DNA from: Chloroflexota bacterium
GTDB taxonomy: Bacteria; Chloroflexota; Anaerolineae; Anaerolineales; UBA4823
Length of the DNA: 41,482 bases
NCBI GenBank assembly: GCA_029265355.1
Contig: JAJUJL010000032.1
Location: forward strand, 1 to 41,482
Direction: 5' to 3'
Below, piece by piece: positions 5,959 through 27,111 of this stretch (the first letter of the stretch is position 1; each line of letters starts with the position of its first letter). The notes beneath the pieces are model-generated. The model was given only the letters and a program-made list of their open reading frames with translations, was not told where the DNA came from and ran no database searches. Both the position numbers and the translations under genes were made by a program.

Positions 5959-5962
<4 letters not shown>
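4784..5962 (+). CDS. lysJ: LysW-gamma-lysine/ornithine aminotransferase
   Basis: A 392-residue class-III PLP-dependent aminotransferase of the ArgD/LysJ family. It converts the LysW-bound semialdehyde to LysW-lysine or LysW-ornithine using glutamate. Visible motifs are CNSGAESIEAAFKF (PLP phosphate), RGFHGRTFGALS, the IIDEVQTGFGRTG aspartate region, and the Schiff-base lysine in VAKSLAGGLPMGAV (Lys243). The ATG at 4784 (MDIKSLES) follows a purine-rich aagagcag. Upstream in-frame codons would translate the repeat-like gap and are not supported. It overlaps lysK by four bases (GTGA). Confidence 0.94.
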
Positions 5963-7044
<1,082 letters not shown>

Positions 7045-11424: not shown

Positions 11425-13524
11425 ATGTTTGGGGCAAAAATTCGCATCACGATGGCAGTTATCCTCGTGACGATGCTGTTTGCTGGCCCGCTTGGGATGC
11501 AAGCAGTCATGGCAGAAGATGAGGGGCTGTGGGTGCCGCCGCCATTCCCGGGCATCGTGAGCGGCGTGGGCACCTTTTTCCAGATCACTGACAGCGCATA
11601 TCTCAATGTGAGCTTGCAGACCACGGAGCCGGTCTCAGCCATGCTCTCCTCGGCGCCCAGCGTGGTCGAGATTGTTTTGGAAGCGGCTGAAGGCGCCGCC
11701 TCCACCGAGGTGAGCCTGAGCGGCCTGGCGCCCAACACCACCTACTACAAGTACGACAACGACCTGGAAAACCTGGTGGTTTTCACCACTGATGACAGCG
11801 GCGCCTATGCCTGGAGCCAGGATCTGCTCGAGCCGCATGTCATCTTCCTGCAGCTCGTGCCCAGCACGAAGTATATCCGCGATACCACGACCGGCGGAGA
11901 TTGCACGCTCATCGGTACGTGGGCTTCTGCAACAAAAACCTGCACCCTGACTATGGATGTGTACGATACGATCCAGATCGCCAACAGCAACATTACACTG
12001 GATGGCGCTGGACACGTTGTATCGGGATATGACCTTCCTGGAAACCTGAGAGCAAACGGGGTCTTCATCCCGAAACCAAGCGGCCCAACCGTCCTGAGCG
12101 GCATCACGATCAAGAACTTGACCATCCAGGGCTTCCAAAACGGCATTGGGTTGGCGAGGACGACCGGCAACTTTATCCTCAACAACACCATTCAGGGTGT
12201 GAACCGGGGCGTTTCCCTCGATCCGCAAGCGACGGGTAACACCATCGCCGGCAATACCATCCTTGGTTTCAACAATGCCGGCATCTACCTGTTCAACGCT
12301 GGTGGAAACTTCATCCGCGGCAATGCCATTGATGGCGACCACCCGGTTGGCATTTGGATCCAGAAGGGCGCCAATAACCAGGTCACCGGCAACCGCATCA
12401 TCGGCTCCGATGTCGGTATCCAGCTCGATTCGGATGTCAACAAAGTCATCCGCAACACGGTGAACGACGCCATCGCCCCCCTGGATGGCTACGGCTTCAG
12501 CAACTCCACCTACAACAACAACTTCCTGGGATATACGTCTCCTTTCAAGACCTCAAACAAGAATAACCAGACGACCAACACCGGCGCGCCGCTGCTTGGC
12601 AACTTCTGGCATGGATATGACACAGACCTGGAAGGCTGCTACGACGCCAACCTGGACACGGTCTGCGATGCAGCGTACGCGTTGACCAATCAGAACAGCG
12701 AACTGGCTGGCGTGGATAATTTCCCCTGGAAGAAGCCCAACGGCTGGCACCCCATCGAGATCAGCGCGCCGGTTGCGCCGCAGTTGATCGGCACACCCAT
12801 CAGTGTCAGCGCAGTCTTCAGCGATCTGGATGTGCTTACCCTGGGCAAGCACACCGCTGAGTGGGGCTGGGGCGACGGCACCACCTCGCCCGGGACGGTA
12901 TCCGAGTCATTGGTCGACGGCAAGGTGGTGGGTACGGTGACTGCGCCGGTTCACGACTACCCCCTGAATGCCGGCATCTATGAGCTCAAGCTGAAGATCT
13001 CCGAATCCTACTACATGTCCTACGTGGAGAAGGTCTTCCAGTACATCGTTATCTACGACCCGGATGCCGGTTTTGTCACCGGCGGCGGCTACTTCGACTC
13101 ACCGGCTGGCGCGTATGCCGCCGATCCAGAGTTGACCGGCCTGGCAACCTTTGGCTTCATCTCCAAGTATCACAAGGGCGCCACAGTGCCGGAAGGGCAG
13201 ACGGTGTTCGAGTTCCACGCCGGCGACCTGTATTTCAAGTCCTTCACCTATGACTTTTTAGTGATGAAGGATGGCAAGGCCACTTTCAAGGGCACCGGCA
13301 CGATCAACGATATCCCCGGCTACAGCTTCTATATCACCGCCATCGATGGCGAGGTGCACCCGGTATACGAATTCGACACTTTCCGCATCCGCATCTGGGA
13401 AACCGATACCGGCTACTGGATCTACGATAACCAGATGGGCGCGCCGATCGACGCCGACTCCACCACCCGCCTGATCGATGGCAGCATCATCATCCAGATT
13501 GCCAGCACGGTCAAAGGCAAGTGA
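11425..13524 (+). CDS. Secreted parallel beta-helix (NosD-like) repeat protein
   Basis: A 699-residue exported protein. Residues 1-30 are a signal peptide ending AVMA before ED. About 150-400 carry repeated NxIxGN units (NFILNNTI, NTIAGNTILGF, NFIRGNAIDG, NQVTGNRIIG, NKVIRNTV), the right-handed beta-helix of NosD/pectate-lyase-like proteins. About 430-530 resemble a PKD-type domain (AEWGWGDGTTSPG). The end (about 540-699, starting GFVTGGGYFDSPAGAY) resembles domains found at the C-termini of other large secreted proteins. It is probably surface-exposed or extracellular, for carbohydrate or protein contact; no catalytic residues can be assigned. It is convergent with the 1177-residue gene downstream. 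Confidence 0.8.
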   Translation: MFGAKIRITMAVILVTMLFAGPLGMQAVMAEDEGLWVPPPFPGIVSGVGTFFQITDSAYLNVSLQTTEPVSAMLSSAPSVVEIVLEAAEGAASTEVSLSGLAPNTTYYKYDNDLENLVVFTTDDSGAYAWSQDLLEPHVIFLQLVPSTKYIRDTTTGGDCTLIGTWASATKTCTLTMDVYDTIQIANSNITLDGAGHVVSGYDLPGNLRANGVFIPKPSGPTVLSGITIKNLTIQGFQNGIGLARTTGNFILNNTIQGVNRGVSLDPQATGNTIAGNTILGFNNAGIYLFNAGGNFIRGNAIDGDHPVGIWIQKGANNQVTGNRIIGSDVGIQLDSDVNKVIRNTVNDAIAPLDGYGFSNSTYNNNFLGYTSPFKTSNKNNQTTNTGAPLLGNFWHGYDTDLEGCYDANLDTVCDAAYALTNQNSELAGVDNFPWKKPNGWHPIEISAPVAPQLIGTPISVSAVFSDLDVLTLGKHTAEWGWGDGTTSPGTVSESLVDGKVVGTVTAPVHDYPLNAGIYELKLKISESYYMSYVEKVFQYIVIYDPDAGFVTGGGYFDSPAGAYAADPELTGLATFGFISKYHKGATVPEGQTVFEFHAGDLYFKSFTYDFLVMKDGKATFKGTGTINDIPGYSFYITAIDGEVHPVYEFDTFRIRIWETDTGYWIYDNQMGAPIDADSTTRLIDGSIIIQIASTVKGK

Positions 13525-13616: not shown

Positions 13617-16600
13617 TCAGCGCTGCAGCATGGGCAGGAAGATGGCGTTGCCTGTCACCTGCAGCGTGACCGGCAGCTCAACCGGGCTGCTGCCGGGCTG
13701 GTCGGATTTGAGGGTGATCACGCCGCTGTACAGCCCAACCATCAAACCACTCGGATCGAAGGTCAGGTTGAGGTCGGAGGGGGTGAGCCCGGCGTTTATG
13801 TCCAGCGAGAGCCAGGGCAGATCCTCGCTGGCCGTCCAGTTGATCTCGGTCTCATTCGAACTGCGCAGCGTCAGCAGCTCAGAGACAGGCGCTCCACCAA
13901 AGTCGGCAATCACAAACAGGTTGCCGGGCGCAGCTTGCAAGATCCCCGGTTCAGGGGCGCTTTCCACCGCGATGGTGATGGTGCGCTGCACTTGAGCGCT
14001 CTGCAGGTCGCTGTCGGTAGCAGTCAGGGTCAGCACGTGCACACCGGTAGTCAGCTCGGAGGTGTTCAGGGTGGCGCCCGCGCCCAGCACGCCGTCCAGG
14101 CTGGATTCCCAGACGAAGGCTGAATCATCCAGCATACCGTCTTCCAGGTCGTAAGCCGACCCCTGCAGCGTCACCTGCTGGGTGGGGAAGAAGATCTGAT
14201 CGGCTTCCGGCAGCACGATCTGCACGTCGGGGGCGTGTGTGGGAAGGCTGATTGCGCCGCTGGTGTCCTGCCCGCTCAGAAAGCCATCCGAGACCAGCAC
14301 CCGCAGCATGGCGGAACCGCCAGGCAGGTCGTTTGTGTCCAGTTCGAGCTGCTGGTCTGCCAGCCCGGTCGCCAGGGTTTGCCAGGTGAGGCCGCCGTCA
14401 TTGCTGTACAGCAGGCTGTAACTCAGCGCGTCGCCGTCCAGGTCGGAGCCTTCCCAGGTGACCAGGAAAGGTCCTTCTGGCAGCACGGCGCCATCCACCG
14501 GCGAAGTGAGGTTGACGCTGGGGGCGTTGGCGCTGGCGTCACGCGAGGTGATCAGCGCTCCCTGGCGGCGGATCTCCACCCGCACTGCGCCGGCAGCCCA
14601 GGGGATGATCTCGGCAATCACCGCCGGCATGCCGGGGCTTTCCTCTGCATCGGTCAACAGGTCTGGCTGGAAGGGATAAACCGCCAGGTCGGTACTGCTG
14701 CCGTCTACCAGGGCAAGCTCCCACTCGCCCGGCTCGGGCAGCTCCACCGCCGCGCTCTGGGCGATCTTGTAGACGCTCTCCAGGTTGGCGGTATTGGCCT
14801 CCAGGTCTGCCAGCCCCATCACTGCCAGGAACTCATCCGCCGAAACCTTCTCCAGGGCGGAGACGCTGCTCATACCGCTGCCGACCAGGTAGCTGCGAAT
14901 GCCCTCGTAGGTGAAGTCGGATACCCACTGGTTGTCGCAGTAGGTCATCACGTCTTTCCACGAAGGGCCGTAGATCGCCCGGGTGGTGATGTCGAAGCCG
15001 TAGATAGCGGTGTTGCCGCTCAGGCTGGGGCTGATGCGCCCGCCGGTGTAGGGGTAGGCCGCGCCGTCGCCCGCGCCGCAGAACTCAGCATGATAGCGCC
15101 CACGGGTGTGGCCGATCTCGTGCCCGCCGTACCAGTCGTTGTACGAGCCATCAAAATCCCAGCCCCAGGTGTCGGTGCCGGTCGGCCCAGCGGCGATGGT
15201 GCTGGGGATATCAGCGGCTTTGCCGCGCATGAAACCGCCGCCGTCATCCACCACGCCGTAGTACACCACGCGCCCATCCTCGCCGTTGAACAGGATGCGG
15301 AACAGTTTGATCAGCGCCAGCCAGCCATGCAGCGTGTCCACGTTGGGCAGGCCGTTGGTGGGGTACACAAAAGTCTGGCGCGAGACCTGCAAACTGTTGA
15401 TCGGGTAAGCCCGGCGCAACCAGGATTCGAGCGAATCCAGGTGGAAGTTGGCTGCCAGGTAGGTGTTGCCGCCGGAAGTGTACTGCACGTTGACCAGGCG
15501 CAAACGCAGCGGCGGCGTGTCTTTGAAGTTGACCGTGATCGATTGAATGTTATCGCTGGTGTCTGGGTCGAATTTGGCGCCGTTGGGGTCCAGGCGAGCG
15601 GTCAAGGTCAGGTTGCCGGCGGTGGTCCAGCTCGAAGGCAGCTCGAACCAGAAGCTGTCGTTGATCTGGCCGCGATCTGGGATGGTGCGCACGGTGATGT
15701 CGCTGCCCGGGTTGCCCGGGTTGAGGATGGGCGCCAGTTGGATAAAGCCGCGCCGCCCCGAGAGCGTGGCAAAGACATCTGGCACATTGGCTGGGCTGCT
15801 GGCGTGCACACGCACGTAGGTGCGCTTGCCGGCGACCAGGTCCACGCTGTTATTCAGATCTTGGATGGCCTGGGTGACCTCGATGGCGTCCACGTGCATG
15901 TCTGGCCCGGGTGGGGGACCAGAGCCAGCCCAAAGCAGGTGCACCGGCAGGAAAGCCTCGAAAAGCAGCGCAGACTGGTCGGGTGTCCACATCTGGACGC
16001 GCACCTTGTCCACGATCACCGGTCCGCTGGTCAGGCGGAACGATCCAGTGGCGCTGCCCGAGCCAGCCGGATGGACGATCGAGCCGTGGGCGGCGTAATT
16101 TGGAGACAGGTTGGCGCCGCTGAATGGGCGCGCCCAGATGCGCACGCCATCTTTGTTGATCGTCGTGTAGTCGAAGGTCAGGTTGACGTTGTCGGAGTAC
16201 TTGAAGATATTGGGGGTATCCGGCGCCAGCTCGATTTTGGTGATGATGTTTGGCGAGTTGCTGAAGCGGAAGTACACCGGTAAAAAGGCCTCGAAGAGCA
16301 GCGTGGACTGGGCGTCATCCCACATCTGGATGCGTAGTTGATCCACCACGGGCTGTCCATTGGTGATGGTGAAAAAGCCCGAACTGCTGCCGCCGCCGGT
16401 GGGGTGCAGGGGTGAGCCGTGCGCAGCATAGCTTGGAGTGAGGGCGCCATTGGTGAAAGGGCGACCCCAGATGCGCACACCGCCTGACTGACGAGTGATG
16501 TAATCGAAGGTGAAGCTCACGCTCTGGTTCAAGCCCAATACGTCAGGGGTGTCTGGCGTCAGGGCAATGTTGGTGACGGCGTGGATCGCATCGGTGAAGC

Positions 16601-17150
16601 GCAGGTAAACCGGCAGGAAGGCTTCGAAGAGCAGCGTCGAACCGGTGCTATCATAGATTTGAAAACGGATCTGGTCCACCACCACGTCTCCGGTGGTGAT
16701 GGTAAAGAAGCCATTGCCCACACCGCTGCCCATGGGATAAAGCGGGGATGGGTGGGCGGCGTAATTGGGGGTGAGCGCTCCGTTGCTGAAAGGGCGCGCC
16801 CAGATGCGCACACCGCCAGGCTGGTTGGAGATGTAGTTGAAAGTGAAGGTCACATTCTGGTTGGTGCGCAGGATATTGGGCGAGTCGGGCGCCAGGTCGA
16901 TATCGGTCACCAGGTGGTCGCCGGGCGCGGCTGGAACCAGGGGGGCATCCGGTCGGGGCTCCGCCATCGGCGGTTCGCTCGCTGCTGGCATTCCTGGCGA
17001 GGCTGAACCTGGCGGGGCGGGTTCTTGCCCAAGGGGCGAAACCTGGGATGCCGTCGCTGATGCGCGGCTGCTGTAAGGGGCGATCAGCATTGCCAACAAT
17101 ATCAGGATATAAAAGACCTTTTTGGTTATATTGCTGTAGGGACTTAACAT
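13617..17150 (-). CDS. Large secreted metzincin-like protein with triplicated N-terminal domain
   Basis: A 1177-residue exported protein with a signal peptide at about 1-32. Three similar units of about 110 residues follow (about 85-405), each with APDxPNI, F-F-YI, GVRIWxRPF, YAAH and LLFEAFLPVYLRF. Next comes a region beginning MHVDAIEVTQAIQDL and a zinc site GGHEIGHTRGRYHAEF: the full HExxHxxGxxH metzincin pattern at His677, His681 and His687 with Glu678. After about 850 there are Ig/FnIII-like beta domains (PVDGAVLPEGPFLVTWEGSD, ALSYSLLYSNDGGLTWQTL). It ends NAIFLPMLQR, possibly a short sorting-like tail. AAAGGAG six bases before the ATG supports the start. Family is assigned by motif; substrate unknown. 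Confidence 0.78.
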   Translation of the reverse strand: MLSPYSNITKKVFYILILLAMLIAPYSSRASATASQVSPLGQEPAPPGSASPGMPAASEPPMAEPRPDAPLVPAAPGDHLVTDIDLAPDSPNILRTNQNVTFTFNYISNQPGGVRIWARPFSNGALTPNYAAHPSPLYPMGSGVGNGFFTITTGDVVVDQIRFQIYDSTGSTLLFEAFLPVYLRFTDAIHAVTNIALTPDTPDVLGLNQSVSFTFDYITRQSGGVRIWGRPFTNGALTPSYAAHGSPLHPTGGGSSSGFFTITNGQPVVDQLRIQMWDDAQSTLLFEAFLPVYFRFSNSPNIITKIELAPDTPNIFKYSDNVNLTFDYTTINKDGVRIWARPFSGANLSPNYAAHGSIVHPAGSGSATGSFRLTSGPVIVDKVRVQMWTPDQSALLFEAFLPVHLLWAGSGPPPGPDMHVDAIEVTQAIQDLNNSVDLVAGKRTYVRVHASSPANVPDVFATLSGRRGFIQLAPILNPGNPGSDITVRTIPDRGQINDSFWFELPSSWTTAGNLTLTARLDPNGAKFDPDTSDNIQSITVNFKDTPPLRLRLVNVQYTSGGNTYLAANFHLDSLESWLRRAYPINSLQVSRQTFVYPTNGLPNVDTLHGWLALIKLFRILFNGEDGRVVYYGVVDDGGGFMRGKAADIPSTIAAGPTGTDTWGWDFDGSYNDWYGGHEIGHTRGRYHAEFCGAGDGAAYPYTGGRISPSLSGNTAIYGFDITTRAIYGPSWKDVMTYCDNQWVSDFTYEGIRSYLVGSGMSSVSALEKVSADEFLAVMGLADLEANTANLESVYKIAQSAAVELPEPGEWELALVDGSSTDLAVYPFQPDLLTDAEESPGMPAVIAEIIPWAAGAVRVEIRRQGALITSRDASANAPSVNLTSPVDGAVLPEGPFLVTWEGSDLDGDALSYSLLYSNDGGLTWQTLATGLADQQLELDTNDLPGGSAMLRVLVSDGFLSGQDTSGAISLPTHAPDVQIVLPEADQIFFPTQQVTLQGSAYDLEDGMLDDSAFVWESSLDGVLGAGATLNTSELTTGVHVLTLTATDSDLQSAQVQRTITIAVESAPEPGILQAAPGNLFVIADFGGAPVSELLTLRSSNETEINWTASEDLPWLSLDINAGLTPSDLNLTFDPSGLMVGLYSGVITLKSDQPGSSPVELPVTLQVTGNAIFLPMLQR
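15930..16910 (-). repeat. Three tandem copies of a ~320-bp coding repeat
   Basis: Within the metzincin-like gene, three successive units encode the same pattern (GVRIWARPF or GVRIWGRPF, YAAH, ALLFEAFLPV or TLLFEAFLPV). The DNA copies are similar too, for example gcgcacaccgcc and gcctcgaagagcagcg recur. This indicates domain duplication. Confidence 0.8.
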
Positions 17151-17197
17151 GGTTTGCTCCTTTAATCGCTGTTTTAGGGGGTCCTAGAGGCTCTTAC

Positions 17198-18943
17198 TCA
17201 AGGCATTCGGATCAGGCCGGGCGCCAGGGAGGCATCTGCCAGGGGCGCTGCCTCCAGCAAGATGCGTTGGTATACCTGCGCCTGGCTGGCAGACTGGTAA
17301 TAACGGGCGGCAGCTCCGCTGACCAGGGGCGTGGCAAACGACGTGCCCACCCAGTAGGCATAGCCGTAGGGGCCGGCAGCGCCGGGCGCCACGGCGGTGG
17401 TCAGGCTGATCAGCCCGAATGGGCAGTTTGCCGGGTCGGAGCTGGCGCTGGTGCAGGCAGCCGCCAGCGGCTTGCAGCGCGGTGTGGTTAGCGCGTCGCC
17501 ATCCTCGCTTGGGTCCAATTCAGCCTGCGCCCCGGGGGCGACCACATCGCCCAGGTTGGAGTAGCAGGCGGGCTGCCCCTGCGGCCCGCTGGCAGCTACG
17601 CTCAGCACGAAGGGATAGGCGCCGGGCAGCTCGCTCTCCAACTGCTTGTCGCCGTGCACAGAGTCATTGCCAGCGGCTGCCACGATCACCGCCCCAGATT
17701 GGTAGGCCAGCAGTGCTGCCGTATGCAGCGACTCGATGGCTACCTCGGCGCTGCTCATGCGGTAGGCAGCAAGGATTTCCTCCCCGTGGACTGCGATTTC
17801 TGCCAGCAATCGGTCGCGCTCAGCGCCATCCGGCAGGCGGCGCGGTTTCTGTATGCCCAGGCTGAGATTGATCACCGTGCGCGGCCGGCTGGCGAGGGCG
17901 GTTTGATCGGCTACAAAGCGCAGCATGCCACCCACCAGGTGATAAAGGTCACCGCAGCCGCTGTCATCCAGCACGCGGTACAGGTGGATCTGGCTGTTTG
18001 GAGCAGCGGCGTGGATCAGCCCCGCCACATACAGCCCGTGGTCTTTGACATCCACAGGCGTCGCCCCGGAGGAGAGCGCCAGGGGCGCCAGGGCGAAGGG
18101 GTGGTGGACGTTCAATGTCAATGCCGGGTCAATGGCAGAGATATTTTCCACTGCGTCGCCGGTCGCGCTGGCCATTTTGAACGGTGAGGTGTCGAAGATA
18201 GCCACTTGCACGCCTTCCCCGCTCAGCCTGGAACTTCCCGGCGGCAGCAGGCCGATCTCGCGAAACGCCCACTGCTTCCAGAATGCTCCCGGGTCAGCCG
18301 GCGTCGCCTGCCCACCATCCGGGCTGCCTTCCACGCCAAACGGGCTGCCCTCCACACCGAAGGGGCTGCCTTCCACGCCAAAGGGATGGCTGCACGGGCT
18401 GCCTGCCAGATGACCGGTCAGGTAGTTGGGATCAGCATAGGCTGCCAGTTCTGGTTGCTGTTGTTGCACAGACTGCACCGCAGCAATGGCCTGCTCCACG
18501 CTGCTGCCTGCGCCGACCTGGTACAGGTTGATCGCCAGCGCGCCGTCTTTGGGGGCCGCCACCCGTCCCTGCTGCAGGTTGTAGAATGGATAACTGGTTT
18601 CGCTGGCCTCTCGCCGCGATTCTAGTGGAAACTTCCCCGGTTGCCCGGCGGCAGGCAGGCGCTCCAGACCGCTCACCTGGCAACCTTCGTACAGCTCAAG
18701 GCTCACGCCCTGTTCCGCCAGGCCTGAGACCAACACCTGCACATCCTGGGGGCTGCCGCTCAAGATCAACTGGTTGCGCACGAAGTACGGATTGGCAGGC
18801 AGAACAGCGCCCACCTGGTAGGCTGGGCCGGGCTGGCATTTCAGGGCCACGCCTCGCGGCCGGGGAATGCAATAAGTTATGATCAAGACGATGAGCAGGA
18901 TGAGGGCGGCCAAAATGATAGAAAGGCGAGCTCTGCGTTTCAT
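17198..18943 (-). CDS. Subtilisin-like (S8) serine protease, membrane-anchored or secreted
   Basis: A 581-residue protein. The ATG at 18943 is chosen because AAGGAG lies nine bases upstream; an in-frame ATG at 18952 abuts the site. Residues 7-25 form a hydrophobic signal or anchor. Residues 50-185 look like a pro-region, followed by a GVEGSPF tandem repeat (about 189-208). The catalytic set is complete: VAIFDTSPF (Asp251), DVKDHGLYVAGLIHA (His302), VAAAGNDS (Asn426) and VGTSFATPLVSG (Ser535). It probably acts outside the membrane. It lies 165 bases after the CHAT gene and 47 bases before the metzincin gene, all on one strand. Confidence 0.9.
   Translation of the reverse strand: MKRRARLSIILAALILLIVLIITYCIPRPRGVALKCQPGPAYQVGAVLPANPYFVRNQLILSGSPQDVQVLVSGLAEQGVSLELYEGCQVSGLERLPAAGQPGKFPLESRREASETSYPFYNLQQGRVAAPKDGALAINLYQVGAGSSVEQAIAAVQSVQQQQPELAAYADPNYLTGHLAGSPCSHPFGVEGSPFGVEGSPFGVEGSPDGGQATPADPGAFWKQWAFREIGLLPPGSSRLSGEGVQVAIFDTSPFKMASATGDAVENISAIDPALTLNVHHPFALAPLALSSGATPVDVKDHGLYVAGLIHAAAPNSQIHLYRVLDDSGCGDLYHLVGGMLRFVADQTALASRPRTVINLSLGIQKPRRLPDGAERDRLLAEIAVHGEEILAAYRMSSAEVAIESLHTAALLAYQSGAVIVAAAGNDSVHGDKQLESELPGAYPFVLSVAASGPQGQPACYSNLGDVVAPGAQAELDPSEDGDALTTPRCKPLAAACTSASSDPANCPFGLISLTTAVAPGAAGPYGYAYWVGTSFATPLVSGAAARYYQSASQAQVYQRILLEAAPLADASLAPGLIRMP
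18321..18383 (-). repeat. Three 21-bp tandem repeats in the S8 protease gene
   Basis: Units at 18321-18341, 18342-18362 and 18363-18383 differ at only a few bases and encode successive GVEGSPF heptads between the pro-region and the catalytic domain. The length is a multiple of three, so copy-number changes would keep the frame. Confidence 0.85.
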
Positions 18944-19038
18944 CGAATCCATCTCCTTAAGGTTCCAATGTCCCGGACCGCCGTCAGGTGTTCGATCGTA
19001 AACGGAACTGTTATCTGCGCGCAGCCGCACGCTGGAGA

Positions 19039-19075
19039 AATGCCAGGAAGTGGAGTGTTATTCATCACTGGCATT
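19039..19075. terminator. Weak hairpin after the CHAT gene
   Basis: AATGCCAG at 19039-19046 is the exact complement of CTGGCATT at 19068-19075, with a long 21-base loop. On the minus strand it is followed by TTTCTCC. It lies in the gap between the CHAT and S8 genes and may be a weak terminator or processing site. Confidence 0.3.
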
Positions 19076-19108
19076 AACGCATGGGCTGGATTTTTTCCGG
19101 CATCCGGG

Positions 19109-22057
19109 TTAATACATTCCGGGATCGCCCACCAGGAAGAAGGGCGCCCAGTAATAGGGGTGGGTATATGCGGCGGGCAGGCGTTCCGCTTCTTGCGAAG
19201 CCCTGGTCAGAAATGCGCACTGCGCCTGGCGCAGCGCTTCCCCCTTGGACGCACCAGACTGCAACTCTCGGTAGAACTTCTCCATCAACATTGCCGTCGA
19301 GCGATCATCGACAGCCCACTGGCTGAGCAACAGCGATTGGGCGCCGGCGTACAGGAAGGCGCGCAGCAAACCCAACAGCTCGTCGCCTCCGCCGATCACG
19401 CTGCGCCCGGTCTGGCAGGCGCTCAAAGTGACCAACGAAGCATTCAAGCGCATGTTGAAAATATCCAGCGTGGTCAGCGTGCCGCCCGCTGGCTGTGCGC
19501 CATCTGAGAAAGCCAACCCCGAGAAGAGCGGGTTGTCGCTGCGGAAATCGCCGTGGCAGGCCAGGTGAATCAGGCGACAGTTGGGCGCGAGCTGTTGAAT
19601 CTTCTCACGGGTAGCCTGCGCGCCGACTGCCAGCTCGGCGTTCCACAGGCTGGCGATCGTCTTTGCCTCCTGCAGCGTGTGCTGCAGGCGCCCCTGGTAA
19701 GTATCACCAACCACCAGCGCCCCCTGGTTAGCAGGCTGCACCTCACGGCAGTAGCGCAGCAGGCTGGCAGCCGGCAGGTAACTGACGGCGTGCGTCTCGA
19801 CCAGGTAGCGCTCGCCATCGTGCAGAGCATGGAAAGGCAGATAGTGCAGGTTGCCATGCGGCACGAAGATCAGTTCAGAATATGCCTGCAAGTGCTCGCG
19901 CACATCTTCCAGCAGCAAGCCGTACAACTGGCGCAAGAGGCCGCGCGCATTGCGCTCCAGGTCGAGGGGGGGAAGCCCCATGCCGCTGGCGGCGGCTTTC
20001 AAGTTAAGGCCTAGAAGCTGCTGCAAGCGCATGACCCTGGGCATCTCCGCGGAAAGGCGCGCTACGCGCACCGCCTGGCGGTCCACCAGGAAGAGCAGCA
20101 ACTCGCCGCGCGAGCAATAGTATTCCAACAATAGCGTATCTTGCCCCAGATGTGGCTGCACCGCCTCGGTGCGCACCTGCCAGATGGCGGCCTGGCGGGC
20201 ATAGCCAGCGTTGCGGATGAGCAGCTTGTGCCAGATCTCAGTGATGCGCTTTTCGATCTCCAGCACGTCGCCCTGCACATGGCGAAAGGCGTCCTCGTAA
20301 TGGGGGTCGCCGCGCACGCGCATTTCCTCGTTGGCCTCGCTTTCCCAACGCCGGTACAGGCGATCGCGTTCAGCCCGCAGATAGCTGAGCTGCTCTGCCA
20401 GGGCGCGGTCATCGGGATCAAGCGCCGCCAGGCGCAGGTCCAGCCGGTGGGCCAGCAGGTCAAACAGGGCGCGCGACTTGGCGCGCTCGGCGAAGCGCAG
20501 CGCTTCATTCGGTTTACCCTGCTGGACGTGTAGAGCGACCATGTCTTCGTACACTTCTTGCTTGTCATCCAAAAAATCGGCGCGAAATTCGATCATCAAG
20601 CGACCGCGCAGGTTTTCCAGGTACTCGATCGCCTGCCCATACTCTGCCAGGGCCTGCTCGATCTCGCCGCGTGCTTCAGCCAGCCTGCCGCCCAGAGCAT
20701 GGGCGGCATAAGCCAGCGAGGGAACGTGCTGTTCTGAGCGAGCATCGCCGCTCACCTCGAGCGCCTGCTGGACGTAGCGGCTGGCCTGCTCTTCCATGTC
20801 CAAAGCCAGCAGGGCGCGCGCCGCTGCCAGGCAGGCCTGGGCGCGCTTCACCGGCTGGGCAGAGAGGGGCGCCAGGCAGTCTTCCGCCCTGCGCAGGCTG
20901 GCGCGGTATCGCCCCTGGCGCAGCAGCACGCCGGCGGCTTCCAGGTTGGCGTAGGCGGCCCAGGTGGGGTTGCCCTGGGCGAGAAAAGCTTTGGCGGCTC
21001 CCTCTAAGGAAGCCAGCGCCTCGTCGTAACGCTTGAGCCCGGCATAGGCGATCGCTTCGTTCATGATGGCCAGCCCCACCTCGAAGCGCGTGCCCAACTG
21101 ATCGAACACCTGGTACACCTGGCGCGATTTTTCTAGCACTTCTGGAAAACGGCGCAGTTGCAGCAAGCAGTCGCTGATGAAAAGCTCGGTCAGTATAGCG
21201 TCGCGATGGCGCCCATCCGCCAGGAAAGCCGAACGCACCTGGTCCAGGCGTTCGAGAGCCTCGTTGTAACGGCCCAGGACAAAATAAGTGAGCGCCAGGT
21301 TTTGCAGGGCGCGCGCTGCTTCCACCGGCTGCCCAAGCTCTTCCAACCGGCGTTGAGCGTTGAGGCTGGCCTGGATCGAATCGTCGAAGCGCCCCAGGTT
21401 GCGCAGGACAATGGCGCGATTGAACTCCGCTCGCAGCCAGCCCGGGCTGTCTTGCATGCCGGCGCGTTCATAGAGCCGCTGGGCGTTCTCGAAGGCCTGC
21501 AGCGCAGCGCCGTCGTCTCCCAGGCGATAATGCACGATCGCTAAGTTTCCGACAACTTTGGCTTGCGAAAACCAATCCTCATGCTGTTCCAGTACACTGC
21601 TGGCAGCTTGCCCGGTTTCCAACGCTTCCTGGTAACGCCCCAGAAAGACCAGGGCGCCGATCTTGCCGATTTGCGAGACAGCTTGCTCTACGGGTGAACC
21701 CTCAGCCAGGTAGATTTCCGCTGCCTGGTCGTAGAGCTGCAAGGCGGCTTCGTATTCTCCCAGCCCGATCGATCGGGCATTGGCTTCTGCCAGGTATGCC
21801 AGGGCGCGGGGGCGCAGGCTGCCGCTCAGCTCTGATAGCCGCACGAGTAACTGGCTGGTTTGCAGCGAGTATTGGATATTGGAGCGCAGGTATTGGTCAG
21901 CCTGCGCCTTCAATCGCCGGGCGGTTTCCTCCACCTCCAACTGGGCGATGTTCAGCTCCAGAAAGGCGCGTTGATCCTGTGGAGTATCCAAAGAAAACAA
22001 CCGCTCCAGCCTGGATTGCCTGTCCGAAGATGTCATGTGTGGTAATTCCGCGCTCAC
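19109..22057 (-). CDS. TPR-CHAT protein (caspase-like peptidase fused to tetratricopeptide repeats)
   Basis: A 982-residue protein. About 70-560 is all-helical with many TPR units (LGEYEAALQLYDQAAEIY, LGRYQEALETGQAA, LGRYNEALERLDQVRSAF and others), a protein-binding superhelix. About 690-982 is a CHAT domain, related to caspases and separases. The presumed dyad is His835 in HLACHGDFRSDNPLFSG and Cys881 in LSACQTG, followed by SLLLSQWAVDD. There is no signal peptide, so it is cytoplasmic. The start is uncertain: GTG at 22057 or ATG at 22036, neither with a strong ribosome site. It lies 57 bases after an anti-sigma-like gene and a sigma gene, which suggests regulated proteolysis. Confidence 0.9.
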   Translation of the reverse strand: MSAELPHMTSSDRQSRLERLFSLDTPQDQRAFLELNIAQLEVEETARRLKAQADQYLRSNIQYSLQTSQLLVRLSELSGSLRPRALAYLAEANARSIGLGEYEAALQLYDQAAEIYLAEGSPVEQAVSQIGKIGALVFLGRYQEALETGQAASSVLEQHEDWFSQAKVVGNLAIVHYRLGDDGAALQAFENAQRLYERAGMQDSPGWLRAEFNRAIVLRNLGRFDDSIQASLNAQRRLEELGQPVEAARALQNLALTYFVLGRYNEALERLDQVRSAFLADGRHRDAILTELFISDCLLQLRRFPEVLEKSRQVYQVFDQLGTRFEVGLAIMNEAIAYAGLKRYDEALASLEGAAKAFLAQGNPTWAAYANLEAAGVLLRQGRYRASLRRAEDCLAPLSAQPVKRAQACLAAARALLALDMEEQASRYVQQALEVSGDARSEQHVPSLAYAAHALGGRLAEARGEIEQALAEYGQAIEYLENLRGRLMIEFRADFLDDKQEVYEDMVALHVQQGKPNEALRFAERAKSRALFDLLAHRLDLRLAALDPDDRALAEQLSYLRAERDRLYRRWESEANEEMRVRGDPHYEDAFRHVQGDVLEIEKRITEIWHKLLIRNAGYARQAAIWQVRTEAVQPHLGQDTLLLEYYCSRGELLLFLVDRQAVRVARLSAEMPRVMRLQQLLGLNLKAAASGMGLPPLDLERNARGLLRQLYGLLLEDVREHLQAYSELIFVPHGNLHYLPFHALHDGERYLVETHAVSYLPAASLLRYCREVQPANQGALVVGDTYQGRLQHTLQEAKTIASLWNAELAVGAQATREKIQQLAPNCRLIHLACHGDFRSDNPLFSGLAFSDGAQPAGGTLTTLDIFNMRLNASLVTLSACQTGRSVIGGGDELLGLLRAFLYAGAQSLLLSQWAVDDRSTAMLMEKFYRELQSGASKGEALRQAQCAFLTRASQEAERLPAAYTHPYYWAPFFLVGDPGMY

Positions 22058-22114
22058 AACAGGGGTTTAGGAGCGCCCTGCTGCCAGTTCTCCTGGCCTG
22101 ATCGAGCGCTGCGC

Positions 22115-22741
22115 TCACGCGATGATCAATTGCTCGATATCGATTTCTATCTCGATGTTGCTCAAGCGCAGCGAATACTCACCGGGGGCTACCCTGTGGA
22201 TAGCGAAATTGCCCAGCTCATCGACCTGCGACTGGGCTGCCAGCGAGCTTGCCTGGTACAACCGGGCGATGAGCGGCGCGCTGGTGGGCTCGGCGCCGGT
22301 GAGCAAGCCCATGATCGATCTGCGGTCGGGCCGGTCGGCGTCCTGCTGGATATCGATCACCAGATGATACCCCTCGGCGTTGAAGCTCAACATGCTGCCC
22401 ACTTCGCCGCGCACGCCTGCCAGCGCCGGCGACCACCCCGTCCCAGGAAAGCTCGAGGGCAGCAGGCGGGCTACCAGGCGCTTCAGCAGAGTCTCGCTCT
22501 CCTGCCCTTTTTGGGGGTTGGGCGCGAGATCTGCGCTCACAGAGTCCATAAAACTGCGCAGCGCTTCTAGCTCATTGGTGCAATGTGGGCATTCCGCCAG
22601 GTGGGCGCGCAGCTCTCGCCGGCGGTCGGTGGAGAGCAGACCCAGGTGATATTCACCCAGTTCTGTGCTGTCGGGGCAGAATGCCCGGTAAAGTGTGGCG
22701 CGCAGTTTGCGTTCGATGTTGTCCATTGTATTGTTCCCCAT
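22115..22741 (-). CDS. Zinc-finger anti-sigma-like protein
   Basis: A 208-residue soluble protein. The N-terminal part has the ZAS zinc-binding pattern: Cys22, then HLAECPHC with His47, Cys51 and Cys54, as in anti-sigma factors that sequester ECF sigma factors. The C-terminal half (about 105-208) is beta-rich and resembles a small carboxypeptidase-regulatory-like domain (LVIDIQQD, GNFAIHRVAPGEYSLRLSN). No transmembrane helix is seen, unlike many anti-sigma factors. The ATG at 22741 overlaps the sigma stop (TAATG); an in-frame ATG at 22726, eight bases after GGGGA, is an alternative start. Anti-sigma function is inferred from motif and position. Confidence 0.75.
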   Translation of the reverse strand: MGNNTMDNIERKLRATLYRAFCPDSTELGEYHLGLLSTDRRRELRAHLAECPHCTNELEALRSFMDSVSADLAPNPQKGQESETLLKRLVARLLPSSFPGTGWSPALAGVRGEVGSMLSFNAEGYHLVIDIQQDADRPDRRSIMGLLTGAEPTSAPLIARLYQASSLAAQSQVDELGNFAIHRVAPGEYSLRLSNIEIEIDIEQLIIA

Positions 22742-23517
22742 TATAGTCTCTCCAGGTAGGCTGCCAGCTCCTGGTCGCGCTGCAGGCGGGCGAGAAGGTT
22801 CTCTTTTACCCGGTAGACTTCCTGGATATCTTGAAATAAGCCTGGATATTCAGCGTAAAGCTGGCGCGCTTTCAAGGCATTGACGAACATGCCCACCAGG
22901 ATGCAGCGCTCCTTGTAATCTTTGCAGCGCTCTTCGAGCAGCGACCACAACTGCTCGGCCTGAGTCTTGCGCAGCACACTGTCTTCCATGGAGCGCTGCT
23001 CGCTGCTATGGGAAGCGCTCCGTTCCAGCGCCTCATCCTCCACCAGGCTGGCTCGCGTGCGGCTGCGAGCTGCGTCCACCAATACCGCGTTGACGCACAT
23101 TTGCAGGTAGCGCAGAATTGATTTGAGATCGGGAAAGTTGGCAAATTTATTCGAAGAAACACCGACCCACAGGCGCTCGAAGGCGCGATTGGCCAGGTAT
23201 CCGGGTTCTTCACTGAGCACCGTGGACAGCCCGTGGCGGTGGATCCAGCTCAGCACCAGGGCCTGGTATTGGGTGTAAATGCACTCCCAGGCGGACTGGT
23301 CGTGAGCGACAATTGCCCGGCGAAATACTTCATAGCAATAGCGCGCATCGGAATCCTGGTGGCGGAAAAAGCGCTCCGTTTCAGCCGCGCATAAACTGCG
23401 CAGTTCTTCCAACTCGAGCATCCGGGGATCGCCGTCTAAAGGCATAACTGCCGTTCCAGGGTGAACAGGGATTTCCTCCAGTAGATTGGGATGCGTGGAT
23501 GCAAACTGTGCACACAT
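22741..23517 (-). CDS. ECF-like RNA polymerase sigma factor
   Basis: A 258-residue protein. About 65-150 matches sigma region 2 (RAIVAHDQSAWECIYTQYQALVLSWI, then a -10-recognition-like NFPDLKSILRYLQMCVNAVLVDAARS). A linker follows, then a region-4-like helical part (KERCILVGMFVNALKARQLY...FQDIQEVYRVKENLLARLQRD) that is divergent from ordinary ECF factors. The first ATG (23517) is only three bases after a perfect TATAAT at 23521-23526, so either the transcript starts inside this codon and translation begins at a later Met (for example 23445), or another promoter is used. It is coupled to the anti-sigma-like gene by a one-base overlap. Confidence 0.75.
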   Translation of the reverse strand: MCAQFASTHPNLLEEIPVHPGTAVMPLDGDPRMLELEELRSLCAAETERFFRHQDSDARYCYEVFRRAIVAHDQSAWECIYTQYQALVLSWIHRHGLSTVLSEEPGYLANRAFERLWVGVSSNKFANFPDLKSILRYLQMCVNAVLVDAARSRTRASLVEDEALERSASHSSEQRSMEDSVLRKTQAEQLWSLLEERCKDYKERCILVGMFVNALKARQLYAEYPGLFQDIQEVYRVKENLLARLQRDQELAAYLERL

Positions 23518-23557
23518 ATTATTATAAAGGATGTCAGAAAAGTCGATTAACGGGTAT

Positions 23558-23593
23558 TGGGGGCGCGGCGACCCCTGACCACCGCGCCCCCCA
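23558..23593. terminator. GC-rich hairpin between the 714-residue gene and the sigma gene
   Basis: TGGGGGCGCGG at 23558-23568 pairs with CCGCGCCCCCCA at 23582-23593 (one bulged base; loop 13). It lies 13 bases after the stop of the minus-strand gene ending at 23607. No clear T-run follows, so termination strength is uncertain. Confidence 0.5.
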
Positions 23594-23606: not shown

Positions 23607-25751
23607 CTATTCCAAAGGTTCTTCCAGGCAGAAGCCGACAGAGGCCGAGCGGTGGTGCCCGGAGTGACCGCTGTTGACTACGGCCCGGTCATAGGCATGC
23701 ACCTCGATGATGTAACCGCAGGGTTGCATACCAGTCGTGTTCAGCGTCCAGACGTTGCCCGGGGAGAGGGCGGTCTGGATAACGCCGCTGGATGGCACCG
23801 GAGAGACCGGCCCGGGTGGATTCAGCGTGGGCTTGACCACCAGGCTGTACGACTTGAAGTACAGGTCGCGCGCCACGAAGCGACCGCTCAACGTTACACC
23901 AGGCAGGAACTTGCCGCAGTTTCCCAGGCCGGTGTCGATGTTGATCTCGGCATCCGGCAGGGTGTTGTCGAGTTGCAGGCGATGGTAGGCGCCGATGGCG
24001 ACCAGGGTGTTGGTGTTGTCGTAGACCAGCATGCGGATACGCCACAGGCTGTTGCCGCTGGTATCCCACTGCCCCAGCACATTGAACATGTTCTGGCTCA
24101 CGGGCAGGAAGTCGAACTTGCCGGTGCCATCGTGAGTGTGCAGGCTGGAGACTCCGCCAGAATTGACCACGGTGAAGTTGTTCATCAGGGTGGTCCAACC
24201 GACAGCGCCCACTTCCTGCACCTCCAGGCGGTAGCTGTAGCCGGGGTAGCTCTCTCCGATCACGTTGACCCGCCCGCCGAACGGGCACGGGCGCCCCAGG
24301 CTGTCGACAGGCACGCTGATATCGGCGAAGGTCGCGGCGGGGGTGGTCAGGCCGCTGAGATCATCGATGTCGCCGGTGGGCACATTGCCCAGGATGGAGA
24401 TCTTGGGGATCACCACGCCGAAGGGGATTTCCGGGCCAGGGGTGATGTGCACCAGCGTCTGCTCGCGGTTGCCCCAGGTGGGGACGTAATTCGGGTTGAA
24501 GCATGGCGGCGGCACACCCCACGAGAGGATTGCCCGGATGGGAACTACCACTGGCCCTTGCTGGCAGGGCTTGCGGTAGTGCTTGAGATCGACTGGCAGC
24601 GCCACCGCGTACATCAAGCCCTGGGGCGGGATGTTGGCGATATCGTGCACGGTGACCGAGGCAGTGCCCAGGCAGGTTTCGAAGGTGCCATTGTTGTTGA
24701 AGTCGCCCCAGAAAGTGACGTATTCTTTGCTGCCAGCGGTGCATGGTCCGCCGCTGTAGCCAGATGGGCGCTTGATGTGGATGATGCCCACCAGCGTGTC
24801 CAGGTTGGTGTTCAACCCCACGCATTTGAGCTCCTCGTAGCGGGTGTTGCCGTCGGTTGGGAACAGGTTTGCGGTCAGCTCGTCGAGGTTCAGATCGATG
24901 CCCGGCAAAAGCGCCTGTAAACCACCCTCCACCAGGGAGGCGCCCGCCGCGCTGCTCACCAACTGGTTTAACTCAGCAAAGGCGTAGCGATGGGGTTCGA
25001 TGCCTTTATCCTTGTACAGCGCCTGCAGTTCCATGGCGTTCAGCGAGGCGGGCTCGGTCGCCTCGATGGGTTGATCCAGGTCGACGACACTCTTCAAGAG
25101 AGGCGGCAGCTTGACCTGCACGGCCTCGAACAGGTCGGCGATGGGGAAGCGGCGGCGCGGCTTGAGTTGGATGTAGGCGTCCTGCACCTCGCCCCACACC
25201 GGGATGAAATTCGGGTTGCCAGGCGGGGGTGCGAAGTTCCAGGAGAGGATGGCGCGCATGCGCACCACGTTGTTCTGGAAGCAGAAGCGCGTGCGCGGAT
25301 CGATGGTCAGCGTGGCGTCATACTCTAACCGCCGCGCTCCGACCGTGCCCTGGGGGATATCGTAGGCTTTGAAGGCCGTCAGGCCCTGATCGATCCAGGT
25401 AGCGCCATTGTCGTGCGACAGGAAAAAGCGCACGTACTCGCGACTGCCCGGCGAGCAGATATTGCCGCCGTACCCACTGGGCTGCTTAACGAAAACAACC
25501 GCTTCCAGGCGGCTGAGCTGGGGGTTATAGCCCACGCAGCCGATTTCTTCATAAAACGTGTTGGATTGGATTTCCAGGACTGCCTTGAAAGGGCTCTCGG
25601 TCAGGTTGCCAAAGTAGTTCGGGTTGGCTGCTACCAAGGCCTGGAACTGGGCGCGCTCCCTGGCGAACTTCGCCCGCTGCGCCTTAGGAGCTTTCTCTGT
25701 CGCCGCCGGCCCAGCCTGCTCATCATTTTGAACTGCTTCTTCCTTAGCCAT
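23607..25751 (-). CDS. Uncharacterised protein with duplicated domain
   Basis: A 714-residue protein that I do not recognise as a named family. The ATG at 25751 follows AGGAGG by seven bases. It starts with a charged Ala/Lys/Glu-rich stretch, without a signal peptide. Two similar units can be aligned (about 45-200 and 285-445). Both contain YEE(I/L)xCVGxN, a (V/I)K(Q/R)PSGY(G/S)G segment, a Cys and a GS(R/K)EYV segment, then a RAILSW segment with Pro-Pro and a NPN(F/Y)(I/V)PxWG segment. The rest (about 450-714) includes a jelly-roll-like part ending in HAYDRAVVNSGHSGHHRS. It lies upstream of, and in line with, the sigma gene. It may be a structural, binding or target protein. Confidence 0.8.
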   Translation of the reverse strand: MAKEEAVQNDEQAGPAATEKAPKAQRAKFARERAQFQALVAANPNYFGNLTESPFKAVLEIQSNTFYEEIGCVGYNPQLSRLEAVVFVKQPSGYGGNICSPGSREYVRFFLSHDNGATWIDQGLTAFKAYDIPQGTVGARRLEYDATLTIDPRTRFCFQNNVVRMRAILSWNFAPPPGNPNFIPVWGEVQDAYIQLKPRRRFPIADLFEAVQVKLPPLLKSVVDLDQPIEATEPASLNAMELQALYKDKGIEPHRYAFAELNQLVSSAAGASLVEGGLQALLPGIDLNLDELTANLFPTDGNTRYEELKCVGLNTNLDTLVGIIHIKRPSGYSGGPCTAGSKEYVTFWGDFNNNGTFETCLGTASVTVHDIANIPPQGLMYAVALPVDLKHYRKPCQQGPVVVPIRAILSWGVPPPCFNPNYVPTWGNREQTLVHITPGPEIPFGVVIPKISILGNVPTGDIDDLSGLTTPAATFADISVPVDSLGRPCPFGGRVNVIGESYPGYSYRLEVQEVGAVGWTTLMNNFTVVNSGGVSSLHTHDGTGKFDFLPVSQNMFNVLGQWDTSGNSLWRIRMLVYDNTNTLVAIGAYHRLQLDNTLPDAEINIDTGLGNCGKFLPGVTLSGRFVARDLYFKSYSLVVKPTLNPPGPVSPVPSSGVIQTALSPGNVWTLNTTGMQPCGYIIEVHAYDRAVVNSGHSGHHRSASVGFCLEEPLE

Positions 25752-25875
25752 GTTGTTACCTCCTTGTAACAAAAAACGTATACGAACGGGTTGATCACCC
25801 CTATAAACGACGACAGGCTTGTTTTTCCGGCAAAGGAGCGACTCTAAATCATCACCGCTGGTAAAATGGAAAGCG

Positions 25876-27111
25876 ATGGCCAATCGGACCGATTTCGAAG
25901 TCCGCTTATCTGGGCTTGTCTATGGCGGCAGCGCTCTTGGCAGACTGGAGGATGGGCGGGCAGTCTTTGTACCCCTGGCGCTGCCTGGAGAGCTGGTGCG
26001 GGCGCGTGCCGTGGAGGAGAAGGCTGGATTTGTGCGCGCCGAACTGCAGGCTGTGCTGGAGCCTTCACCGCTGCGCATCCAACCGCGCTGCCGGCATTTT
26101 GGCGTGTGCGGCGGTTGCCATTACCAGCATCTCGCATACAACGACCAACTCGAATTCAAACGCAATATTCTGGCCGAACAGCTCTCTCGCATCGGGGGAA
26201 TCGAAAATCCGCCGGTAGCCCCGCTTGTTCCAGGAGAAGCCTGGCGCTATCGCAATCACATTCAATTCCATTTGTGTGAAGATGGTCGGCTGGGTTTCAT
26301 GCCGCGCCAGGGAGATGAGCCATTTGCGGTGGAAGAATGCTTTTTGCCAGAAGAGGCGCTGATGCAAGCCTGGGCTAACCTGGATTTCGAAGCCATGCCG
26401 GAGGTCGAGCGCATTGGCTTGCGCGCCGGTCTGGATGAAGATATTCAGGTCATCCTGGAAGGCAGCGAGGAGGCTGTGCCAGAGGTGCTGGTCGAGGATT
26501 TGCCCTATTCGGTCGTTCACCTGGGCGCAGCCGACCTGGTTACCCTGGCAGGCAGCGAATTTCTCTTCATGCAGGTTTTGGAGCGAGAGTTTCGGGTTTC
26601 TGCCGGTTCTTTCTTTCAGGTGAACACGGCAGTGGCCGGGAAGATGGTGCAGCACATCCTGGGGTTGCTTCCCGCTACTGGCACAGACCTGCTGCTGGAG
26701 TTGTACAGTGGGGTTGGCCTGTTCTCGGCCTTTCTGGCGCCGCGAGTGAAACACCTGGTGGCGGTCGAAAACTCGCCGTCAGCCTGCGCTGACTTTGCCT
26801 TCAACCTGGATGAGTTCGATCATGTGGAGCTGTATGAAGCTCCAGCCGAAATAGTTCTGGGGGCGTTGAGCTTGCAGCCCGACCTGATTCTGGTCGATCC
26901 ACCGCGCGCCGGATTGGAACGGAATGTGCTGAATCGTATCGTCGCGATGGCGCCGCGGCGACTGATTTACGTGTCTTGCGACCCCGCCACCTTGGGCAGG
27001 GACGCTCGTCGTTTGCAGCGAGGGGGTTACCAACTCAAGCAAACCACGCCTTTCGACATGTTTCCGCAGACCTACCACATCGAGTCTGTCAGCCTGTGGG
27101 AAATGGCATAG
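25876..27111 (+). CDS. rlmD: 23S rRNA (uracil-5-)-methyltransferase, TrmA/RlmD type
   Basis: A 411-residue SAM-dependent RNA methyltransferase. An N-terminal TRAM RNA-binding domain (FEVRLSGLVYGGSALGRLEDG...VPLALPGELVRARV-like) is followed by an iron-sulfur motif, CRHFGVCGGC, with a fourth Cys later (EECFLPEE). The SAM fold is shown by LLELYSGVGLFSAFLA. Catalytic motifs are LVDPPRAGLERNVL and YVSCDPATLGRD, with the nucleophilic Cys. The start at 25876 has GGAAAG just upstream and a TAAAAT box at 25862-25867. RlmC and RlmD cannot be told apart by eye, so the symbol is approximate. Confidence 0.88.
   Translation: MANRTDFEVRLSGLVYGGSALGRLEDGRAVFVPLALPGELVRARAVEEKAGFVRAELQAVLEPSPLRIQPRCRHFGVCGGCHYQHLAYNDQLEFKRNILAEQLSRIGGIENPPVAPLVPGEAWRYRNHIQFHLCEDGRLGFMPRQGDEPFAVEECFLPEEALMQAWANLDFEAMPEVERIGLRAGLDEDIQVILEGSEEAVPEVLVEDLPYSVVHLGAADLVTLAGSEFLFMQVLEREFRVSAGSFFQVNTAVAGKMVQHILGLLPATGTDLLLELYSGVGLFSAFLAPRVKHLVAVENSPSACADFAFNLDEFDHVELYEAPAEIVLGALSLQPDLILVDPPRAGLERNVLNRIVAMAPRRLIYVSCDPATLGRDARRLQRGGYQLKQTTPFDMFPQTYHIESVSLWEMA

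Follow-up and report, generated by a model that had tools for sequence, protein, structure and literature searches.

A sigma factor, zinc-finger protein and CHAT protease gene cassette of Chloroflexota as a candidate protease-gated transcription switch

A stretch of 41,482 nucleotides from a Chloroflexota bacterium (contig JAJUJL010000032.1 of assembly GCA_029265355.1; hereafter the window) carries a same-strand run of genes for an extracytoplasmic function (ECF)-type sigma factor, a soluble zinc-binding anti-sigma (ZAS)-like protein, a tetratricopeptide repeat (TPR)-CHAT caspase-like protease, an S8 subtilase and a large metzincin-motif protein (Table 1). We found that the first three genes recur together in relatives and propose that they form a CRISPR-independent transcription switch gated by proteolysis. 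In this model, the sigma factor, ZAS and TPR-CHAT would be produced together at a basal level, with ZAS keeping sigma inactive. A cytosolic trigger, probably sensed by the TPR repeats, would activate CHAT. The protease would then cleave ZAS, most likely in the linker between the sigma-binding finger and the C-terminal region, releasing sigma toward its target genes. The S8 subtilase would be a frequent, optional fourth component, made with the switch and not as its transcriptional output, with an export or anchor segment predicted in certain lineages but absent from the rest. We lean toward this model as a whole, with CHAT acting on ZAS by cleavage, and consider it reasonably probable.

The first-pass annotation of this DNA had listed the five genes with their catalytic residues. 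All of them are present, with the His/Cys dyad of CHAT and the Asp/His/Asn/Ser set of S8 intact. It had also suggested that CHAT frees sigma from ZAS, an idea that is strengthened by linkage of the three genes in 37 of 58 genomes, by a dyad kept in 45 of 45 usable sequences and by three natural sigma-ZAS fusions, while the cleavage step itself is still one that we infer. At the level of sequence, the gene order and its conservation, the catalytic residues, the absence of membrane segments from ZAS, the existence of fusions and the promoter type are established.

Conservation of the sigma-ZAS-CHAT trio

Our search with the sigma protein covered 298 class genomes, a subset of a larger group. Fifty-nine genomes matched, the window's own included, and all matching places except one (G076) were fetched with their flanks, so that 58 genomes were examined. 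Of the 72 sigma open reading frames (ORFs) of at least 200 amino acids, 61 have ZAS as one of the three genes that follow; CHAT is present as well at 42, and both CHAT and S8 at 19. Counted per genome, the sigma-ZAS pair is found in 46 of the 58, sigma, ZAS and CHAT in a row in 37, and all four genes in 19. Some of the places that lack the full order are at contig ends; others are genuine absences. The linkage that had been predicted is therefore conserved and, because the gene order recurs in relatives, it is more than chance.

Across the phylum, the sigma profile matches 295 of 400 genomes, with about 80 matches (counted from the list) stronger than 1e-38. Since most of these matches are weak, they may be to general ECF sigma factors. 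Among 40 phylum loci with stronger matches, a script tally placed ZAS next to sigma at 31, the trio at 12 and all four genes at 3; the tally leaves out the fusion locus L146 and L144, where no ZAS was called. A mobile-element origin was discarded, as no sigma match was found in plasmids or phages. The scan of genome contigs returned a single short match, in Helicobacter, apparently by chance.

Approaching the cassette from its protease gave a similar picture. The window's CHAT protein matches PF12770 with an E-value of 7.5e-74 and 249.2 bits, against a curated cut-off of 24. The CHAT profile is found at E ≤ 1e-60 in 109 of the 298 class genomes, and of the 47 best-scoring CHAT places, 38 have a sigma match no more than 9 kb away. 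We assembled a second set of 20 loci from the nine remaining best places and the eleven next ones. Upstream of CHAT, these contain another sigma-profile match in 10 of 20 and a ZAS-profile match in 14 of 20; behind it, an S8-profile match occurs in 15 of 20 (in L165 after opposite-strand ORFs). The sigma genes of this set are of the ordinary ECF type, with Sigma70_r2 in five of five tested in Pfam. A third set of 20 loci, hand-picked as a control with CHAT E-values from about 1e-91 to 1e-186, continued the pattern: a sigma-profile match stands upstream in 11, with a zinc-motif protein between the two in 9 of those 11, and S8 adjoins CHAT in 3 of 20. Sigma domains were confirmed in five of five third-set genes tested, so that Pfam finds region 2 and/or region 4 in all ten genes tested from the two sets. 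An outside control consisted of CHAT loci from five of 201 plasmid records (Streptomyces, Caballeronia, Nostoc, Azospirillum and Hymenobacter) and two viral-contig loci; sigma, ZAS or S8 profile matches stand beside CHAT in none of these seven. Taken from both sides, the counts indicate that the trio is the core of the cassette and S8 an accessory.

The catalytic dyad is kept in 45 of 45 CHAT sequences that span both positions (7 of 52 rows were gapped or misaligned there and unusable) and does not vary among the 37 sequences of the CHAT alignment, so the loss of the dyad in orthologues, named beforehand as a sign against the idea, was not seen. The alignments comprise 41 of 71 sigma (A1), 48 of 59 ZAS (A2) and 37 of 46 CHAT (A4) sequences.

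The sigma factor and its putative inhibitor

Taken singly, the window's sigma sequence has no sigma-domain match in Pfam. Among the 41 aligned family members, 10 match Sigma70_r2 at E ≤ 0.01, and the family profile weakly matches solved ECF sigma factors (best E 0.0079). Within the window's genome it also weakly matches seven further genes (best E 2.6e-9), and the one tested carries Sigma70_r2 and r4 in Pfam. The label "ECF-like" is thus borne out, with sigma regions 2 and 4 recognized through the family profile and relatives and not in the window's sequence alone. Translation probably starts about 24 codons past the first ATG (near residue 25), because a TATAAT sits 3 bases before that ATG and homology starts near residues 20 to 38. 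The N-terminal extension contains a conserved cysteine pair, Cys43 in 69 of 69 rows with a residue there and Cys61 in 67 of 73, which could form a redox or metal site. For sigma and ZAS, AlphaFold modelling from single sequences was uninformative (pLDDT 43 and 39).

The ZAS protein of the window matches zf-HC2 in Pfam (E 1.6e-6), and the H-x3-C-x2-C zinc motif is intact in 61 of 65 members of its group. The finger is present once in the window's protein and twice in 39 of the 65. In the PDB, the ZAS profile matches the solved anti-sigma factors ChrR, DdvA and 3HUG, the last of which we take to be RslA. No chain named Csx30 was matched in a PDB copy whose Csx30 content was unchecked. Both the finger and the position beside sigma, with ZAS within the next three genes at most sigma places, agree with membership in the ZAS family. 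The C-terminal region has a weak likeness to CarboxypepD_reg/transthyretin-like domains: CarboxypepD_reg is found at E ≤ 0.01 in 4 of 48 members, with E 0.055 for the window and 1.2e-4 for L167 of the second set.

A membrane-like segment is absent from 59 of 62 ZAS proteins. The intramembrane route that serves membrane anti-sigma factors is therefore not applicable, and intramembrane proteolysis of ZAS is unlikely. For a soluble inhibitor, the operon can provide a cytosolic protease.

The closest tie between the two proteins comes from natural fusions. Directly before CHAT, loci L146, L174 and L175 encode single proteins of 488, 516 and 498 amino acids, in which the sigma profile matches first and the ZAS profile, with its zinc motif, follows. 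L174 and L175 come from one genus and L146 from another family. Considering the finger, the adjacency and the fusions, a sigma-ZAS partnership appears highly likely. The fusions, like the compact operon, also open the cleavage step to direct tests on purified proteins. A joining on the other side is suggested by PDB entry 8ROT (also 8RW5), whose chain 8ROT_B, a "CHAT domain-containing protein", matches both the ZAS profile (residues 7-44, E 0.0035) and the CHAT profile (residues 832-978, E 1.3e-18) and is apparently a ZAS-CHAT fusion. Our literature search found no publication naming both 8ROT and 8RW5.

Promoter, fourth genes and competing explanations

A promoter of the TTGACA/TATAAT type is enriched upstream of sigma. 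At least 10 of 12 positions agree in 17 of 72 upstream regions, compared with 1.3 expected from shuffles, and at least 9 of 12 in 33 of 72, compared with 8.6 expected; the loci are related, and hence these counts are not independent. The window's own promoter agrees in 9 of 12 and is weak in the -35 box, and a terminator scan at the hairpin region (23559..23591) found no T-run site. Given this housekeeping-type promoter and the separation by the hairpin, the switch, S8 included, seems to be made in advance. Autoregulation of the ECF type was set aside, as the upstream regions show housekeeping-type promoters instead; an ECF-type motif was sought by reading 22 of the 72 regions by eye and no further.

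A switch that seems to be made beforehand speaks against sigma inducing these proteases, with a second promoter as a possible way around this. The first-pass annotation had assigned the exported proteases to sigma as targets. This part of it is not supported: the operon seems to start at one housekeeping-like promoter, its genes are closely spaced (an overlap of 1 base and gaps of 47-78), and about half of the S8 proteins have no export signal. Operon layout, promoter type and the signal-less proteins led us to reject S8 as a target. The metzincin protein was rejected for the same role. Its family is common, being present in 146 of 298 class genomes, and among loci L033-L102 and L104-L151 a match stands beside the cassette in L112 alone, weakly and three genes behind S8. 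Cassettes do not usually include the metzincin gene. Overall, we find it improbable that sigma induces the listed proteases.

In the window, the S8 protein matches PF00082 (E 4.8e-21) with Asp280, His331, Asn455 and Ser564, and in an alignment of 19 proteins, the window's included, Asp, His and Asn are kept in 19 of 19 and Ser in 18 of 19, with L087 the exception; these are the residues expected of a subtilase. The S8 ORF of L087 (genome G030, 4876-6534) opens with apparent C-terminal CHAT residues, which reflects either a CHAT-S8 fusion or an assembly error. By eye, the window's protein begins with a hydrophobic segment that has no clear lipobox. Among 37 CHAT-adjacent S8 genes, the N-terminus is strongly hydrophobic in 15 and, by the same cut, not so in 22, of which L140, L162 and L164 are borderline and L087 and L158 unclear. 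Variants of the heptad linker described below are present in L084, L087, L092, L094 and L102, and a count gives six GSP[FW] units in L157.

For loci with no S8 match, we scanned twenty neighbours with Pfam and found C25 (L070) and C11 (L068, and L047 after a gap) proteases, VanW (L075, L077), surface-type domains (L040, L054, L063) and redoxin-type genes (L035, L038); in L041 the second gene behind CHAT has a C13 match (1.6e-6). The scan of these neighbours returned no family in five of them (L034, L040 with 557 amino acids, L043, L058 and L092 with 710). L114, L116 and L133 come from a different family of the phylum, and there the fourth position is by eye presumably occupied by an amidohydrolase gene and not by S8. 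Downstream in L035 and L038 there is a SurA-like/AhpC-TSA protein, and the sigma and ZAS genes are each present twice in L035, L036 and L039.

Several observations weigh against the proposed switch. CHAT is missing from the run at many sigma-ZAS pairs, as in the phylum loci with 31 pairs against 12 trios, so ZAS can function in its absence. One branch whose runs lack CHAT (L035, L038, L036 and L039) has a redoxin-type gene nearby, seen by Pfam in the first two and by tally in the others, and such neighbours fit an oxidative-stress ZAS better. The zinc motif is missing from 11 of the 14 ZAS-like proteins of the second set; of two motif-less proteins scanned with Pfam, that of L167 matched CarboxypepD_reg (1.2e-4) and that of L160 nothing. 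In the third set, 9 of 20 loci have no upstream sigma match, two of these being at contig ends. Trees of the cassette genes are congruent (r 0.80-0.91), a signal inseparable from shared species ancestry. Finally, we infer the binding of ZAS to sigma, its cutting by CHAT, the trigger and the targets alike.

A wider reading of the same genes gives the protease two substrates. It supposes a caspase-like signalling system that stands alone, is widespread in bacteria and is of the type that was recruited to become the CRISPR-linked Csx29-Csx30-sigma set. In it, TPR-CHAT would sense a cytosolic signal, cut ZAS to start transcription and, in many lineages, also fire the S8 zymogen through its heptad linker. 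If true, this system would join a transcriptional and an executioner arm. We regard it as conceivable but doubtful.

Could CHAT, or S8, instead cut sigma itself, with no dedicated inhibitor and ZAS merely an adaptor? Proteolytic control of sigma has been proposed from gene context for group ECF54 (PMC8999054, in its accessible part), and the second-set cassettes pair an ordinary ECF sigma with, in 11 of 14 cases, a protein without the zinc motif. In the window's own group, though, the protein in this slot has the motif in 61 of 65 members, matches ZAS anti-sigma factors and forms a single chain with sigma at three loci, which makes direct cutting of sigma unlikely.

We would give about the same low weight to a scheme in which ZAS senses redox state or metals in the ordinary way and releases sigma unaided, with CHAT and S8 as co-operonic effectors of stress-induced cell death or defence. 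Oxidative stress is the usual cue of soluble ZAS anti-sigma factors (PMC8999054, accessible part), and both the conserved cysteine pair of sigma and the redoxin-type genes near some CHAT-less pairs would suit such a sensor. Yet CHAT persists with different sigma types and with ZAS-like proteins that have no zinc motif, so that what is conserved is CHAT beside a presumed inhibitor and not a redox site, and the operon promoter looks housekeeping-type.

A two-step cascade, in which CHAT cuts the heptad linker of an S8 zymogen, S8 is the executioner and the sigma branch is secondary, seems very unlikely. S8 stands directly behind CHAT in many cassettes, and of the pairs of trees compared, CHAT and S8 agree best (r 0.909, 17 loci). 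In the first set of loci, the distance from the CHAT stop to the S8 start is -4 to 48 bases for all ten signal-less S8 genes that are intact, too little to accommodate an export signal. Tandem heptads of the form GSP[FW]xxx precede the catalytic domain in 6 of 19 S8 proteins, the window's included (one of the 19, that of L075, does not adjoin CHAT), and C25 and C11 proteases follow CHAT in some S8-less loci. Against these points, the 15 of 37 CHAT-adjacent S8 proteins with a clear export or anchor segment would miss a cytosolic CHAT, and S8 is beside CHAT in just 3 of 20 third-set loci and absent from many first-set loci. A phage-defence label was dropped, since PADLOC yielded only subtilase (1.2e-6) and TPR (3.6e-4) matches.

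Known systems and the layout of the window

One of the nearest published counterparts is ECF54, an ECF sigma group whose genes lie beside those for CHAT, subtilase and "carboxypeptidase" domains, for which proteolytic control has been proposed and which, in the accessible part of the source, is said to have no anti-sigma factor (PMC8999054). The window has the same company of CHAT, subtilase and carboxypeptidase-like genes, the last of these a weak match, and therefore neither the linkage nor the idea is new. In contrast to ECF54, compared here by gene context alone, the carboxypeptidase-regulatory-like protein seen here bears a ZAS finger, and three loci have it joined to sigma in one chain. 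The CarboxypepD_reg matches suggest that the ECF54 "carboxypeptidase" and ZAS are the same protein. The new point here is that this slot is probably the missing anti-sigma factor, and our data suggest that a ZAS anti-sigma factor is easily overlooked where its zinc motif has decayed. If true, the missing anti-sigma factor of the published ECF54-type context would gain an identity.

In mechanism, the proposed switch comes closest to Craspase (Cas7-11, Csx29, Csx30 and CASP-sigma), in which a TPR-CHAT protease is encoded beside a sigma factor and its inhibitor; as described in the accessible part of PMC10028731, Csx29 cleaves Csx30, the sigma factor inhibitor, and thereby relieves sigma. The window differs in having no CRISPR array, a ZAS protein as inhibitor and an S8 gene behind. 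Its CHAT protein scores 78.9 bits against the Csx29 model NF041237, far below the cut-off of 300, and the combination that defines type III-E, Cas7-11 and a CRISPR array beside the protease, is not found. The claim that no CRISPR genes are present stands for the window, which has no direct-repeat array, and not for the genome, where RAMP and cas1 genes are found on other contigs (G000 contigs C41, C45 and C48). The RAMP matches are in ORFs of 268 and 454 amino acids on another contig, too short for Cas7-11 at its usual size.

Likewise, CalpL/CalpT/CalpS and the SAVED-CHAT proteases of type III CRISPR rely on a regulated protease, which either cleaves an anti-sigma factor or sets off a cascade of proteases (PMC11417357 and PMC11229360, accessible parts). 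CalpL and SAVED-CHAT read a cyclic nucleotide via SAVED, whereas the window's CHAT has TPR repeats and no SAVED in a Pfam scan. ChrR, 3HUG and DdvA share the finger and the position beside a sigma gene; the window's ZAS differs in its C-terminal type and in the protease gene directly downstream. EACC2/TRADD-N caspase systems also bring a caspase-fold protein, an ECF sigma and a TPR protein into one neighbourhood, but with other domains, and the accessible part of PMC8195603 names neither ZAS nor CHAT. Our literature search covered few subscription papers; among the matches listed, a tie between CHAT and ECF sigma factors is recognized only in PMC10028731 and PMC8999054. If the proposed switch is true, control of sigma by a caspase-fold protease would be common in bacteria and not peculiar to CRISPR systems.

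Table 1. Features of the cassette and their positions in the window
Feature	Position	Strand	Details
ECF-type sigma factor	22741..23517	-	258 aa counted from first ATG
Soluble ZAS anti-sigma-like protein	22115..22741	-	208 aa; zf-HC2
ZAS zinc motif H-x3-C-x2-C (HLAECPHC)	22580..22603	-	H47 is the first residue
TPR-CHAT caspase-like protease	19109..22057	-	982 aa; dyad His835/Cys881
CHAT catalytic stretch	19415..19555	-	Cys881 codon 19415-19417; His835 codon 19553-19555
S8 subtilase	17198..19030	-	610 aa; hydrophobic N-terminal segment, prodomain-like region (by eye), D/H/N/S set
About 3 tandem 21-bp repeats, heptad GSPFGVE	18321..18385	-	In S8, between prodomain-like region and catalytic domain
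Large metzincin-motif protein	13617..17150	-	HEIGHTRGRYH at residue 677, DNA 15090-15122
Housekeeping-like promoter before sigma	23521..23550	-	TTAATC, 18, TATAAT; 9/12
Strong G+C-rich hairpin	23559..23591	-	Between upstream gene and cassette

By ORF coordinates, the sigma and ZAS genes overlap by one base (TAATG), and the subsequent gaps are 57, 78 and 47 bases. A NosD/right-handed beta-helix protein (11425-13524) is convergent with the metzincin gene. Directly upstream of the cassette lies a gene for a 758-amino-acid protein (23607-25883) that is rare, being found in 4 of 400 phylum genomes. A relative of this protein is encoded in L134 (1707-4238), 24 bases 3' of the S8 gene.

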